Origin: Flavobacteriales bacterium | GTDB taxonomy: Bacteria > Bacteroidota > Bacteroidia > UBA10329 | Length of the DNA: 52,769 nucleotides | Assembly: GCA_021739625.1 (NCBI GenBank) | Contig: JAIPBJ010000013.1 | Coordinates: 1-52,769 of the forward strand | Direction of reading: 5' to 3' | Shown here: positions 1,129-52,769 of the stretch, piece after piece | How positions within the stretch are numbered: position 1 is the first letter of the stretch | Layout: each line of letters opens with the position of its first letter | Notes under the pieces: model-generated | Databases searched by the model: none | Told to the model about the DNA's origin: nothing | What the model saw: the letters and a program-made list of their open reading frames with translations, nothing else | Position numbers and translations under genes: made by a program

Positions 1129-3143
1129 GGATGATACAGTGTGGTTATCCTATTGACAGTGCCTAATGCCCGCTCCCAGTCGATCCCGATCACATTGCAA
1201 TACCATTGGATAGAATCCCAGCGGGGCGTATTGTCGATGGTGGCCCGTTGCAGGGCATATTCGCGGGTGATCATGCCCTCGCGTACCTGATTGCTTCGGA
1301 AAGTGTCATTCTCTGTGAATCCGGCCACCATGAGGTAAATGTAGTTGTAGAACGCGGCCGTTCCATCGCCAATGCGCCAAGTGGTGCGTGTGCCGGGGTC
1401 AGTCTCCCAGTCGTAGCCATCGAGCAGCGTGCGTTCTATGGTCTGCTCGTCCCAAGGCAGATAGTCGAAGATGTTGAGATTCTCGTGCTTGATCACGTAG
1501 TAGGACCGGAAGGCGTCCAACGTGTCGAGGAGCGAGGAGTTGACATAGGCCGGGTTGAGCAGATATTCCTTGCCATAGAACAGCATCATCCGTGCCTTGT
1601 CGGCCAGCGGAATGGAGTAGGTGCGGTCGTTGCTGAAATGAGGAGGAATGCCACAGAACCCTGTTTTGAAACGCGTGGTCTCCAGCATGTTCTCGCCCAT
1701 GATGGACAGTTGCAGGCCGTTCTGCTGCATCAGCAGCGCGGTGTAATAGAAGTACTGTTTGTCGCCCGCCATGAACAATGGAATGGTGCCAAGATGTGGC
1801 CGTTTGAGCCATGCCGAAACGTTCTTTCGGATGTTCTCCCGTTTCTTTCTTATGTCGGCCGAAACAAGGATGTGTTCCACGCCCAGTGCCCCGCACATCC
1901 GGGCCTGATTCCTTCGGCCCAGGTCGGTGAGCATACCCCAGTCGTAGGAGAAAGCCAATGGAGTGAGATTCAGATCGTGCTTGATGTAATGCAGGGCATA
2001 GCTGCTGTCGCGCCCACCACTGAATGGTACCAGACAATCATGGCCCTTTGTGCCCTTGCCCCGATACTGATCGGCCACTGCCGCCAACGCGGCCGCACCC
2101 TTGGGGCGCAGCGGCACATGGTGGTGGCAGTAGTTGCACACGCCTTCGGTATCGAAGGTGATGAATGGGAAGGTCTCGGGCAATATGCAGCGGGTACACC
2201 GCTTCAACAGGCCGATGCGTTGCAGACGCTGCTCCACCTCCTGTTCCATCGCCTTAGGAACAGGTCGGAAGGCGTATTCCATACTTCGGTTCTGCCGCAC
2301 GGGCCTATCGCTCACCTTCTCAGTCACCTCTATGATCGGCAGCGCCTGTGCATGCACCGGAATATCGGGAGCATCATCCAAAGGGGCACTGAACGTCCCC
2401 ATCACCCCTTTCTGGTCGCTCAGGTCGATGCGCATGAAATGACCGGCCTTCAGTTGCGCAACATCCTTGGTATGGAACCCCGCATCGGGGTGGAGTTGCA
2501 GGGCGGTCTCCAATATGTGACGCTCTGAGGCGAACACCCACGCGCTTCCTTCCGGATGATTCGCATAGTAGAGTGAGCCATTGTTGGTGGCCAGGAGCAT
2601 CGCAGGGCGGTCTGCCAAAAGCAGGGCGGTAGAGGTCATGCCCTTCACCTGCGCGAACAATGTGGACATCCATTCTCCCATCGGCATGCCTGCCGCAGCA
2701 TAGCTGTTGACCAGTGCAGGGATGACCTCGCTGTCCAGCTCAGTCTGCGCTTTTAGCATTGGATGTGCTGCCCAGATGTCGCGGTAATTGACAATAATGC
2801 CATTGTGAACAGCAATGGCCGAGCCCACCACCACAGGCTGATTGTTGCGGTTGTCGTGCTCGTAACCGTGGGTCACCAATCGGGAGTGCCCTATGGCGGC
2901 AAAGGAAGGAACGCGGGCCTCAATTGCTGTCTTCACTTCCACTTCAAACACCTTGGACCGCACAAGTTCTGTAGCCGCGAATGGCGTTCGGATGAAACGG
3001 ATCCCTTGATCTGTTCCCAGTGCCAACCCCGAAGCCTCCTTGCCCCTCGATTCTGAAAGCAATAGCAGGTCTTTCAGCAGCGGCCGAATTTTGGCGACAC
3101 GCTCAAATTTTTCTGAACAAGAGAATCCAATAATGCCGCACAT
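1125..3143 (-). CDS. Fused class II glutamine amidotransferase / PP-loop ATPase, sugar amidotransferase-like
   Basis: The 672-aa product starts with MCGIIGFS, which puts the nucleophile Cys at position 2 as required in class II (Ntn) glutaminases; the frame extends further upstream, but this ATG is therefore the functional start. Residues 1 to about 260 form the glutaminase domain (SRLVTHG and HNGIIVNY motifs). A Cys cluster follows near 310-335 (CTRCILPE, then GVCNYC), and then a PP-loop with SGGRDSS near residue 370. The second half resembles WbpG/PseA-type N-acetyl sugar amidotransferases, which adenylate a substrate and use ammonia to form an amidine. Those normally take ammonia from separate HisH/HisF-type partners, whereas here a class II glutaminase is fused. 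It lies 2 bases after the upstream glycosyltransferase stop and overlaps the acetyltransferase by 4 bases. Confidence 0.88.
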   Translation of the reverse strand: MCGIIGFSCSEKFERVAKIRPLLKDLLLLSESRGKEASGLALGTDQGIRFIRTPFAATELVRSKVFEVEVKTAIEARVPSFAAIGHSRLVTHGYEHDNRNNQPVVVGSAIAVHNGIIVNYRDIWAAHPMLKAQTELDSEVIPALVNSYAAAGMPMGEWMSTLFAQVKGMTSTALLLADRPAMLLATNNGSLYYANHPEGSAWVFASERHILETALQLHPDAGFHTKDVAQLKAGHFMRIDLSDQKGVMGTFSAPLDDAPDIPVHAQALPIIEVTEKVSDRPVRQNRSMEYAFRPVPKAMEQEVEQRLQRIGLLKRCTRCILPETFPFITFDTEGVCNYCHHHVPLRPKGAAALAAVADQYRGKGTKGHDCLVPFSGGRDSSYALHYIKHDLNLTPLAFSYDWGMLTDLGRRNQARMCGALGVEHILVSADIRKKRENIRKNVSAWLKRPHLGTIPLFMAGDKQYFYYTALLMQQNGLQLSIMGENMLETTRFKTGFCGIPPHFSNDRTYSIPLADKARMMLFYGKEYLLNPAYVNSSLLDTLDAFRSYYVIKHENLNIFDYLPWDEQTIERTLLDGYDWETDPGTRTTWRIGDGTAAFYNYIYLMVAGFTENDTFRSNQVREGMITREYALQRATIDNTPRWDSIQWYCNVIGIDWERALGTVNRITTLYHP

Positions 3144-3145
3144 GA

Positions 3146-4243
3146 CTACTTGTAGAGCCGTTCGTTGTCCTGAATGTCCATCCACATGGCGAACAGGAAG
3201 CTCTGCGCCCCGCTGATGCCCAAGAAGGTGAAGGCGAACAGCGTCTCGAAGGAAACGTTGTCGCCCTTGATCATGGCAATGCTCACCTTATACAGATAGG
3301 GCAGCCATAGCATCCCCAACAGGAAAGCAAAATGATACAGGATGAAGAGCGGATGGAAATCCCTGAACAGATATTTGACCCAAAGCCGCTTGAAGAAGCT
3401 CTTTGAAAGCAGCCACGACACGCGTGGAATGACCTTGAATATCTTCATCTTGCTCTGCTCGCCCACGTCATAAATGGGCTTGATCTCCACCTCCCGAAGG
3501 GTGCAGAAGGCGATGTTCAGCTTCACCAGCATGTCGTTGGGCATGCCATAGCTGCGGTAGATGTCATGAATGCGAATGGCGTTCAGGGCCTTGTTGCTGA
3601 TGGCGGTGTAGCCGGTCTGCGTGTCGCTCACGTGCCAGTAGCCGCTGGCCAACTTGGTCATGATGCTGAGAATGGAATTACCGAAATAGCGCACCTTGGG
3701 AATCACCAATAGCGCACTGCGGTGAATGAGGCGGTTGCCCTTCACATAGTCCACCCCTTCTTCCACCACAGGACGGCAGATGTCCTCCAATTCATCGGGG
3801 TCCATCTGTCCGTCACCGGCCATCACGGCCGTGCAGTCGATGCCATGGTCCTTGGCCCATTTGTAGCCCCGTGCGATGGCCGAGCCCACCCCCCCGTTCT
3901 CTAGATGGTCGATGAGGATGATGCGGTCCTGCTCCTCATCGGAATTGAACACTTGAGATGGAACGTACTTCTCTATCTCCTCCTGCTGCAACTGCTGCAC
4001 CACCATGCTGGCGCGGTTGTAGCGGTTGGGCTTCACATTGTCGAGTATGCTGGCGATGCGATGCTTCGGAGTGGTGTCACTCGCAATCAAGGCGCGCACC
4101 ACCTCAGAGGTGCTGTCCGTGCTGCGGTCGTTGACAATGATGATGCGGTCCACGAAAGCAGGCATGCTCTCGATGACCAACGCGATCTGGGTCTCCTCGT
4201 TGTAGGCCGGGACAACAACGGCTATGGTCTTATCGTGGAGCAT
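3146..4243 (-). CDS. Family 2 glycosyltransferase, polyprenol-phosphate sugar synthase-like
   Basis: A GT-A fold glycosyltransferase. The N-terminus has VVVPAYNEE and, about 20 residues later, IIIVNDRSTDST; the metal-binding acidic motif lies in VMAGDGQMDPDEL. The C-terminal third has hydrophobic segments (near FILYHFAFLLGM and TLFAFTFLGIS) that anchor it in the inner membrane, as in dolichol/undecaprenyl-phosphate sugar synthases. It would load a sugar from a nucleotide donor onto a lipid carrier or growing glycan. An upstream GTG at 4321 would add 26 residues, but the catalytic fold begins right after the ATG at 4243, which I prefer. The next gene follows after 2 bases. Confidence 0.85.
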   Translation of the reverse strand: MLHDKTIAVVVPAYNEETQIALVIESMPAFVDRIIIVNDRSTDSTSEVVRALIASDTTPKHRIASILDNVKPNRYNRASMVVQQLQQEEIEKYVPSQVFNSDEEQDRIILIDHLENGGVGSAIARGYKWAKDHGIDCTAVMAGDGQMDPDELEDICRPVVEEGVDYVKGNRLIHRSALLVIPKVRYFGNSILSIMTKLASGYWHVSDTQTGYTAISNKALNAIRIHDIYRSYGMPNDMLVKLNIAFCTLREVEIKPIYDVGEQSKMKIFKVIPRVSWLLSKSFFKRLWVKYLFRDFHPLFILYHFAFLLGMLWLPYLYKVSIAMIKGDNVSFETLFAFTFLGISGAQSFLFAMWMDIQDNERLYK

Positions 4244-6612: not shown

Positions 6613-6955
6613 GGGCCAATTTGCTCAATGATCGAGGGGAGTAGCACAGGGGGCCGTCCTCAGGAACACGAGTTCTCATGCAGAACACGAGGAAATTCAT
6701 GAAGAATGCAAGAAAATTCATGCAGAATACAAGGAAAATCATGAGCCTGTCATGAACATTCATGAGCAACTTCACAATCAATCATGAAGAATGCAAGGAA
6801 ACTCATGTAGCACACAAGGAAGTTCATGTGCAATGCAGGAAATCTCATGTAGAATACAAGGAAACTCACAAAAATACGGTCGTCTTCCGGGCGGTGATCA
6901 GGCCATGATTCCGGCCCCAATGCCACCTGTGTCAGCATGGCAGCGGGATACATGG
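6613..6955. other. 343-base intergenic region dominated by tandem array 1
   Basis: It lies between the stop of the 185-aa gene and the start of the 81-aa gene, both on the minus strand. It is mostly the 21-bp repeat array at 6657-6867; the remaining 88 bases next to the 185-aa gene show nothing recognisable. Two minus-strand frames of about 65 codons cross the array, but they are repeat-derived hydrophobic heptapeptides and are not called as genes. Confidence 0.6.
6657..6867. repeat. Tandem array 1: about ten units of 21 bp
   Basis: From 6678 to 6867 nine units begin with ATG and run close to ATG-nAG-AAy-rCA-AGG-AAA-yTC. Unit starts are 6678, 6699, 6720, 6741, 6762, 6784, 6805, 6826 and 6847, so eight are 21 bp and the one at 6762 is 22 bp. 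A degenerate tenth unit precedes them at 6657. Units share a TTCATG/CTCATG junction. Plus-strand translation meets TAG in units 7 and 9 and TGA in unit 4, and the 22-bp unit shifts the minus-strand frame, so the array is probably not a coding sequence. There are no unique spacers, so it is not CRISPR. Confidence 0.85.
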
Positions 6956-7513
6956 CTATGGCGTGGGGGTCAGGGGCGGGGGTGTCCCAGTGTCGCCTGA
7001 AGGCGGGGTCGGGTCCGGGTTCGGGGTGGTAGGCTTGCTGTCTCCTGGATCGGCCGGGGTGCTGGGCGACTGTGCAAAATGTCCTTTCAGCAGATCATAG
7101 AAGGTGTCGGCACCGGGCACGTTCTGCTCCACGGCACGACCTACCATCGCATAACCTTCGAGACCATACTTGTAGGCAAAGTGCTCTGAATTGATGCGGA
7201 TGTCCGTTACCAGTTCAATGATTTTGGTGGCCTTCAGTTCCACATTGGCCAATGCCTGTGCGAGCGTCCAGTGGGCATCGCCTTCAGCCTCGTTCATGAA
7301 TGGGGGCTTCAAGTTGGGATAATCGTTCTTGTTGCCAAAATAGTCCACCATGAATGACAGGCGGCCATCGCCCACAGACCGAGCGCCCTTACGCTCGTCC
7401 TTGGTCAGGTTGATGTTGAAAGCGGTGAGCTGGTTGATGATGGTCTGAATGTCGGTGGTCATTGTCCCTATCTCAACTGAAGTGATCGGGGGAGGAGTGG
7501 GTTGTAGTGGCAT
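6956..7513 (-). CDS. Uncharacterised Bacteroidota-specific small protein, 185 aa, Pro-rich tail
   Basis: The helical core runs from about residue 20 to 150. It has the pattern I associate with an unnamed, often multi-copy Bacteroidota family: LTKDERKG, then a GDGRLSFM segment, a PPFMNEAEGD segment, an EGYAMVGRAV segment and the ending VPGADTFYDLLKGHF. The last 35 residues are a low-complexity Pro/Thr/Asp tail (PNPDPTPPSGDTGTPPP), likely unstructured. There is no signal peptide or membrane segment. Function is unknown. The ATG at 7513 gives a Pro-rich leader; an internal ATG at 7462 (MTTDIQ) is an equally good start. Tandem array 1 follows its stop. Confidence 0.72.
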   Translation of the reverse strand: MPLQPTPPPITSVEIGTMTTDIQTIINQLTAFNINLTKDERKGARSVGDGRLSFMVDYFGNKNDYPNLKPPFMNEAEGDAHWTLAQALANVELKATKIIELVTDIRINSEHFAYKYGLEGYAMVGRAVEQNVPGADTFYDLLKGHFAQSPSTPADPGDSKPTTPNPDPTPPSGDTGTPPPLTPTP

Positions 7514-51624: not shown

Positions 51625-51649
51625 TATAGACACCCCCCATCCCCATCAA

Positions 51650-51662
51650 GCCCCGGAGGGGC
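51650..51662. repeat. Single GC hairpin related to the palindromic element
   Basis: GCCCC-GGA-GGGGC has the same stem as the second inner hairpin of the two palindromic elements, with a different loop. It stands 26 bases after copy 2 and may be a decayed fragment of a further copy. Confidence 0.5.
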
Positions 51663-51675
51663 GCAGCTTCGCGGG

Positions 51676-52116
51676 CCTTATCAATCCCGAACTCAGGTTA
51701 TCAATAAGAGCACCTTCGCTTTCGATGCGGATGCATTCGCTGTTAATTCGGGCTTCCTCACTATTGAGTTGAGTGTCCTCACTATTGAGTTGAACATCCT
51801 CACTATTGATGTGAGCGCAATCGCTGTCGATTTGAACACAATCGCAGTTGATTTGAGCGTCTTCACTCATCGAAAGGACGCGCTCACTATTCAAAAGGAG
51901 GCCGTCACTAATCGAAAGGACGCGCTCACTATTCAAACGGAGGCCGTCACTATTCAAAAGGAGGCCGTCACTAATCGAAAGGACGCGCTCACTATTCAAA
52001 CGGAGATCGTCACTTATCGAAAGGATGCGCTCACTATTCAAACGGAGGCGCTCACTATTCAAACGGAAGCCATCACTATTCAAAAGGAGGCCGTCACTAT
52101 TGATTTGGAGACACAC
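51676..52116. repeat. Tandem array 2: twenty exact 21-bp units plus one degenerate
   Basis: From 51697 to 52116 there are 420 bases, exactly twenty 21-bp units without an indel; a 20-base degenerate unit precedes them. Types: A (ACTATTCAAAmGGAGGCCGTC), B (ACTAATCGAAAGGACGCGCTC) and C (ACTATTGAkTTGArygtCcTC-like). The 63-base block 51886-51948 is repeated at 51949-52011 with two changes, so growth is recent. Plus-strand reading gives heptads such as TIQTEAV and TNRKDAL (open 51769-52164, 131 aa, ATG start), which could be amphipathic; minus-strand reading gives LNSDGLR-like heptads (open 51646-52209). Either could be a protein, but the open frames follow automatically from the period. No spacers, so not CRISPR. 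Confidence 0.93.
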
Positions 52117-52338
52117 GCAAAAATACTGATGCCTGAACATCAGCATTATACGATGATGAGGTGAAAGGACGGTTCGGAAAGCCCGAGAAAGCAGGCGTGG
52201 CATAAGCATGCTGCCGATCTCTTACCGGTAGGTGCTATCATCCTGACGAAAATCATTTATAGGCCACAGGATATTCTTTACGATCGTACTGTTATCCGTG
52301 CCCGAACGCACTGGACATCAACCAAAGCACTGAATACC

Positions 52339-52769
52339 ATGACCGACAATGCCACACGCACAATGAACGCTGCCGTGGCGGGGCAGCAGGTGATGAACGA
52401 CAACGCCCCGCTTTGGAACACGAGAATGGCCATGGTGAATAAGAAGGGCGCGCTGGACGCCAAGGTCACCGAGATAGAGCAGTTGAATGACGATGTGACC
52501 GATGGCAGGGGCCAAGGCGTGGCCAAACGCGCGGCCCGCGACCTTGCCGCCCGGACGGCCCTCAAACTGGCCAAGCCCATGAGCGTCCTTGCCCGCAACA
52601 TCAACGACCCGGTGCTGGAGGCCGAGACGGACCTGGTCTGGACCGAGCTGCGCTACGGCACAGACCAGGGGGTGATTGACCTCTGGCAACTGGTACACGA
52701 CCGCGCGGCCGCCCACGGGGCCGCCCTGACGGCCGATGGCTACATAGATGCCGCATGGATACCTCAGTT
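52339..52769 (+). CDS. Uncharacterised Bacteroidota helical protein, N-terminal part (runs off window)
   Basis: At least 143 residues from the ATG at 52339, open to the right edge. The sequence is soluble and all-helical: VMNDNAPLWNTRMAMVNKKG, ALDAKVTEIEQLNDDVTDGR, VAKRAARDLAARTALKLAKP, then a VWTELRYGTDQGVIDLWQLV helix. The pattern (W-x-x-x-x-x-F/M near the start, a K-x-x-I-E-x-L helix, a KRAARDxAA helix) is one that I associate from memory with an unnamed, frequently multi-copy Bacteroidota family of about 200 aa. No function is known. It follows tandem array 2 by 222 bases. Confidence 0.65.
   Translation, partial: MTDNATRTMNAAVAGQQVMNDNAPLWNTRMAMVNKKGALDAKVTEIEQLNDDVTDGRGQGVAKRAARDLAARTALKLAKPMSVLARNINDPVLEAETDLVWTELRYGTDQGVIDLWQLVHDRAAAHGAALTADGYIDAAWIPQ

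Follow-up and report, generated by a model that had tools for sequence, protein, structure and literature searches.

The window analysed here, a 52,769-nt stretch of Flavobacteriales bacterium DNA, carries two tandem arrays of 21-bp units, each beside an unannotated gene; neither array is assigned to a strand. The main array (51697-52116) consists of 20 x 21 bp in a single phase throughout, and all 15 scoreable adjacent steps are 21 bp. Several unit types are discernible, and the array opens with two or three weak units. Identity at lag 21 is 0.689, compared with a mean of 0.249 and a maximum of 0.328 in 500 shuffles; the mean pairwise identity of the units is 0.60, rising to 0.69 between adjacent units. 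TRF calls the array as two segments (51755-51838 and 51873-52101) with 0% indels. A three-unit block of 63 bp at 51886-51948 has a second copy at 51949-52011, identical at 61 of 63 positions with the two differences side by side; either may be the source, and the duplication is recent. The 20 phased units and the 63-bp copy with two changes described in an initial annotation of this DNA are thus both correct. That annotation overlooked the second array, the sister arrays elsewhere in the genome, and the gene downstream. A family A gene starts 223 bp beyond the array, and the spacer (52117-52338, plus strand), in which a promoter was not located, compares with a median upstream distance of 172 bp in family A. 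The gene itself (52339-52769, plus strand) is cut by the end of the window after the N-terminal 143 of 302 aa, and the rest was recovered from contig C22 through a 69-bp overlap. Two other contigs (G000:C25 and G004:C31) each start shortly before a family A gene, less than 300 bp upstream, and contig breaks at such places suggest that the repeats may break assemblies and hide arrays. The second array (6675-6868; unit TCATGAAGAATACAAGGAAAT) is unlike the main array in sequence and less regular, with single-base phase shifts. It starts 91 bp past the stop codon of a family F gene (6956-7513, minus strand), the usual place for an array in that family. The gene encodes an unannotated protein of 185 aa, predicted with low confidence to be helical.

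Tandem-repeat scanning of stretches of the same genome and of related genomes revealed further 21-bp arrays. Within the genome itself, arrays with unit types overlapping those of the main array lie on three other contigs (C50, 13805-14333; C84, 3168-3394; C76, approximately 2809-3340) beside differing genes, the one on C84 adjoining an ordinary gene, that for leucyl aminopeptidase. Unit types are common to the non-homologous loci C164, C50, C84, and C76, and multi-unit block duplications (63, 42, and 105 bp) are frequent. By DNA similarity the main-array units have no match in 8 congeners or in 50 more distant genomes; 21-bp arrays are present in random congener stretches with wholly different units, at approximately 7 to 20 per Mb in this array-first sampling of stretches of a few genomes. 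The C50 array is followed by three paralogues in tandem (L048, 9667-12861), members of an unannotated family of 355 aa with relatives in only 3 of 295 genomes. Long arrays of 41-43 bp, or four turns, also occur in this genome beside ordinary genes, at L072 (16635-16963), L074 (16110-16454), L215 (12822-13042), L219 (12593-12903), and L085 (1060-1506). Genes resembling those of helix-turn-helix regulators adjoin 21-bp arrays at two loci of this genome (L053, 9339-9683; L076, 3396-3875).

An open frame of 131 aa with a TTG start covers most of the main array (51769-52164, plus strand), and another of 187 aa runs on the opposite strand (51646-52209, minus strand); both are judged spurious, the equivalent of the latter being closed in the sister array on C76. 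The initial annotation had taken the multiple-of-three period as a sign of a reading frame and preferred selection for a coiled-coil heptapeptide repeat. This protein-coding reading draws on the divisibility of 21 by 3 and on an excess of open frames: all 45 arrays have one or more of their six frames open, where approximately 5 to 6 arrays without any would be expected by chance (p of approximately 0.001 to 0.003). The excess comes without any sign of coding selection, since comparison between units on both strands found no synonymous excess in any frame over the 45 arrays (combined p = 0.70). Stops interrupt every gene-sense frame in 9 of the 45 arrays and every antisense frame in 10, the phase changes seen are of -1 only with steps of plus or minus 3 absent, and equivalent sites carry periods of 22, 43, and 44 bp. 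Coding on either strand was ruled out on these grounds (stops, no synonymous excess, no three-base steps, and periods not divisible by three), and the heptapeptide reading is very improbable. Open frames over 21-bp repeats, possible gene calls of annotation pipelines, can therefore be non-coding. At one locus (L242, G000:C134) a single open frame of 632 codons spans an array and the downstream family A gene; this is probably chance.

The step between units is kept far more tightly than their sequence. Over 47 arrays adjacent units mismatch at 29% of positions (lag 21), yet of 292 scoreable adjacent steps 290 measure exactly 21 bp, two 20 bp, and none 18 or 24 bp; these phase figures come from a lag tally, which replaced a dynamic-programming indel count whose compensating +1/-1 pairs were judged mostly artefact. 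The fixed step of the initial annotation is thus real, and the copying mechanism with a fixed step that it offered as an alternative may apply. Autocorrelation over 44 arrays peaks at 21, 42, and 63 only, with no peak at 3, 7, 10, 11, or 14, and lags 7 and 14 lie below background; an array built of 3 x 7 heptamers was ruled out, as there is no 7-nt signal. Among 73 arrays of at least 80 bp at family A, B, and F loci, 53 have a period of 21 bp, three of 22 bp, three of 42 bp, and two of 43 bp, and the controls show no comparable period peak. In other genera, arrays at the equivalent place beside the same gene families have periods of 22, 43, and 44 bp, so that two or four helical turns recur there. 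The idea that the period is simply a property of the genome (22 bp in one genus) is weakened by the presence of 21-bp arrays in the same two genomes. The units are unrelated in sequence from locus to locus. For one pair of family G genes from two species with 90% identity, the 22-bp unit is kept (91%) in approximately 11 and 12 copies; relatives at approximately 79-80% protein identity have, in the same place and at a similar distance, unrelated units of the same 22-bp length. These comparisons indicate that position and period outlast sequence.

Genes adjoining arrays served as the family A, B, F, and G queries, and their relatives were chosen by protein similarity alone, mostly from draft metagenome-assembled genomes. 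In class-wide searches, two-turn arrays lie within 500 bp of 23 of 33 family A genes, 14 of 20 family B genes, 20 of 28 family F genes, and 23 of 28 family G genes, compared with 0 of 81 pgm controls; related genomes contribute non-independent loci, albeit with mostly independent unit sequences. An independent count of arrays with a period of 21n within 1.5 kb gave 27 of 37 family A loci and 0 of 35 pgm loci, and 1.33 Mb of control DNA from pgm loci held only two such arrays. Approximately a quarter of the family genes have no array detected by the program used (TRF), which favours indel-free arrays and under-detects those with many indels. Some arrays stand beside ordinary genes. In an empty-site comparison at pgm, the gene order of congeners was not conserved. 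The side is specific to the family. Every family F array is downstream of its gene (20 to 0, p = 2e-6), as is every family G array (23 to 0, p = 2e-7), so that together 43 of 56 genes have a downstream array and none an upstream one. Family A arrays are mostly upstream (20, with 4 downstream), short family B genes have the array upstream, and long ones mostly downstream. Median distances between array and gene range from 22 to 172 bp. The arrays occupy co-directional, convergent, and divergent intergenic spaces and are therefore not simply promoter elements, and orthologous genes retain their arrays in place across species.

These counts bear on whether the arrays could be neutral minisatellites, generated and enlarged by polymerase slippage, or by unequal recombination that favours one step, and found near the genes because long intergenic spaces are permissive. 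The frequent block duplications, the quick turnover of unit sequence, and the presence of heptanucleotide arrays in the same genomes speak for such a process. It is nevertheless an unlikely explanation, for the arrays are without 7-nt substructure, unrelated units have one period in common, phase breaks are nearly absent at 29% divergence, family F and G arrays never lie upstream, and the pgm controls have none at all.

Placement at such short distances, on a side that allows co-transcription, would also suit a transcribed RNA repeat working with the neighbouring protein, either as a 5' or 3' UTR scaffold or as an RNA partner resembling that of type III toxin-antitoxin systems, whose antitoxins are likewise tandem repeats beside a gene (PMC5086642). 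Folding predictions gave no signal on either strand of the arrays (z of approximately -0.1, with pseudoknots outside the model), and the arrays match no Rfam family. The units differ between close relatives, in contrast to type III repeats, whose length and sequence are usually conserved (PMC5086642), and families A, F, and G show no toxin signature. In known type III systems (PMC5086642) the repeats are few, longer, and pseudoknotted, and lie 5' of an endoribonuclease gene behind a terminator. Like ToxIN, CptIN, and TenpIN, the present loci combine tandem repeats with one protein gene, but the ToxN/CptN/TenpN endoribonuclease neighbour, the few longer repeats, and the terminator were not found, nor, within a folding model that leaves pseudoknots aside, was a structured repeat. 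We consider an RNA array unlikely. At the DNA level the units lack dyad symmetry (z = 0.11 +- 0.16), and neither W/S nor R/Y composition is periodic near 10 bp; nothing thus points to a classic dimer site or to intrinsic curvature.

The gene families beside the arrays are unannotated. Family A has an N-terminal domain without annotation, to which several relatives add a CarboxypepD_reg-type C-terminal domain, and was found in a class-wide sample in 50 of 395 genomes from 24 genera; family B is marked by the motif LGDWGFEV. For families F and G there is neither a Pfam model nor a solved relative. HHalign detected no homology among families A, B, F, and G, and profile searches of the PDB with families A, F, and G returned nothing convincing. 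No Pfam toxin family and no replication or partition domain was found in families A, B, C, D, F, and G, PADLOC returned nothing for representatives of families A to G, and PHROGs gave weak matches only for the family representatives. A single-sequence AlphaFold2 model of the family F protein in the window is helical with a pLDDT of 39, too poor for a fold search. Median pI values are mostly acidic in families A (5.6) and F (5.0) and basic in families B (9.2) and G (9.6), so that the neighbours are not obviously one shared class of DNA-binding protein. Families A, B, and F co-occur in genomes well above expectation (A with F in 20 observed against 3.9 expected, p = 8e-13). Family C, whose query gene adjoins another array, was found in 22 of 295 genomes, one of which has as many as nine matches, and many of these are genomes with families A, F, or G. 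Its proteins are of approximately 232 aa with an fn3-like C-terminus, and it is multi-copy in family A, F, and G genomes (G004:C9, G011, G057, G093, G105, and others).

The arrays might also be boundary or recombination elements of mobile single-gene cassettes that serve a recombinase or homologous exchange. Multi-copy orphan families that share genomes, unit types that reappear at unrelated loci, and family F and G arrays placed 3' of the gene speak for this. Integron cassettes are similar in that many unrelated orphan genes each have a repeat-like site, often 3'. At one locus (G129:C27; L336, 4080-4972) a 22-bp array and a gene of family G have a broken tyrosine recombinase in two ORFs next to them, which may be a remnant of cassette mobility, but a recombinase was seen at only this one of the loci examined. 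The arrays are direct and tandem, unlike integron sites, with attC-like inverted repeats and folding absent and no integrase linkage shown. Family A arrays are 5', the arrays of orthologous genes stay in place across species, family G has no match in plasmids or phages, and family F has none in plasmids. Viral contigs contain no family F relative. Mobile cassettes are thus an improbable account of the arrays.

We concluded that the arrays form one class beside largely helical orphan families, which suggests an undescribed genetic element. It is very likely that non-coding arrays of two or four turns (21, 22, 42, 43, and 44 bp) with unrelated units accompany the genes of four or more unannotated families without mutual homology across many genera of Bacteroidia, each family having its own side and distance, and that place and period outlast sequence. 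Together with the unit types common to loci of one genome, this persistence implies that arrays are locally duplicated, spread or converted, and replaced. On the reading that we favour, with a probability of roughly 0.45, gene and array make up one module, of which the array is the half that acts in cis, as a helix-phased DNA scaffold. Selection would then act on helical spacing, so that repeated protein subunits would meet one and the same DNA face at every unit, and an oligomeric or architectural protein could assemble on the array into a regular nucleoprotein scaffold adjoining the gene. Such a scaffold might act in cis with, or on, the neighbouring gene or its product, and its units would be multiplied by local block duplication and sometimes swapped for units of other loci. 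The differing charges of the neighbours suggest that the binder may be one shared protein and not each neighbour. Against the scaffold stand the drift of a 22-bp period from 10.5 bp per turn, the differing charges of the neighbours, the lack of dyad symmetry and of periodicity near 10 bp in the units, the quarter of family genes with no array detected, and the arrays beside ordinary genes; no scaffold-binding protein was identified among the families examined. It is a comparably tentative proposal that Bacteroidia possess modules in which the array is recognised by its two-turn spacing and not by its sequence, unrelated families having each acquired one on a fixed side with a replaceable unit. 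Since the conserved property is spacing and gene partner rather than letters, searches by sequence all miss the arrays. For the items searched, Pfam, Rfam, PADLOC, and PHROGs put a name only to generic C-terminal domains, and unannotated families with up to approximately nine copies per genome thereby gain a first shared genomic context.

The nearest analogy for the working principle may be plasmid iterons and partition centromeres (parC, tubC, and parS of pSM19035; PMC5016525), which are likewise helix-phased direct repeats beside a gene. The present arrays share with them direct repeats at integral helical turns (21, 22, and 42-44 bp, with 290 of 292 steps exact). Unlike them, the arrays are chromosomal, at many loci per genome, often 3' of the gene, and without conserved units, and they have no ParA, ParM, TubZ, or recognised DNA-binding partner. 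Because a replication or partition partner is missing, they are not filed with the iteron and partition systems. Borg tandem repeats (PMC9879509) are similarly fast-evolving and locus-specific, between and within genes, but their units are perfect copies of varied lengths, whereas here the units are diverged, of one period, and linked to gene families. CRISPR arrays, defined by a constant repeat, unrelated spacers, and cas genes, differ in that the present units are diverged and head-to-tail without spacers. The initial annotation knew of no described system that fits, and we found none either: a search of openly licensed papers gave no description of two-turn arrays tied to gene families. Heptanucleotide repeats such as the LSSR (Mrazek, 2007) and the TAACTGA arrays (MacGregor, 2015; PMC4679880) are also intergenic tandem arrays near genes in Bacteroidetes and are sometimes long. 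The present units are different in being 21-22 bp with no 7-nt signal and no fixed sequence or recurrent unit of the TAACTGA type, and in being tied to gene families and to a side. True heptanucleotide arrays do occur in this genus and coexist with the two-turn arrays; they were seen on contigs C1 and C24 of the same genome (L051, 874-944; L052, 10375-10435) and in another genome (G002; L054, 10622-10725); the heptamers seen across these loci are GCTGTTC, GCGAACA, and 15 perfect copies of GCTTGTC.
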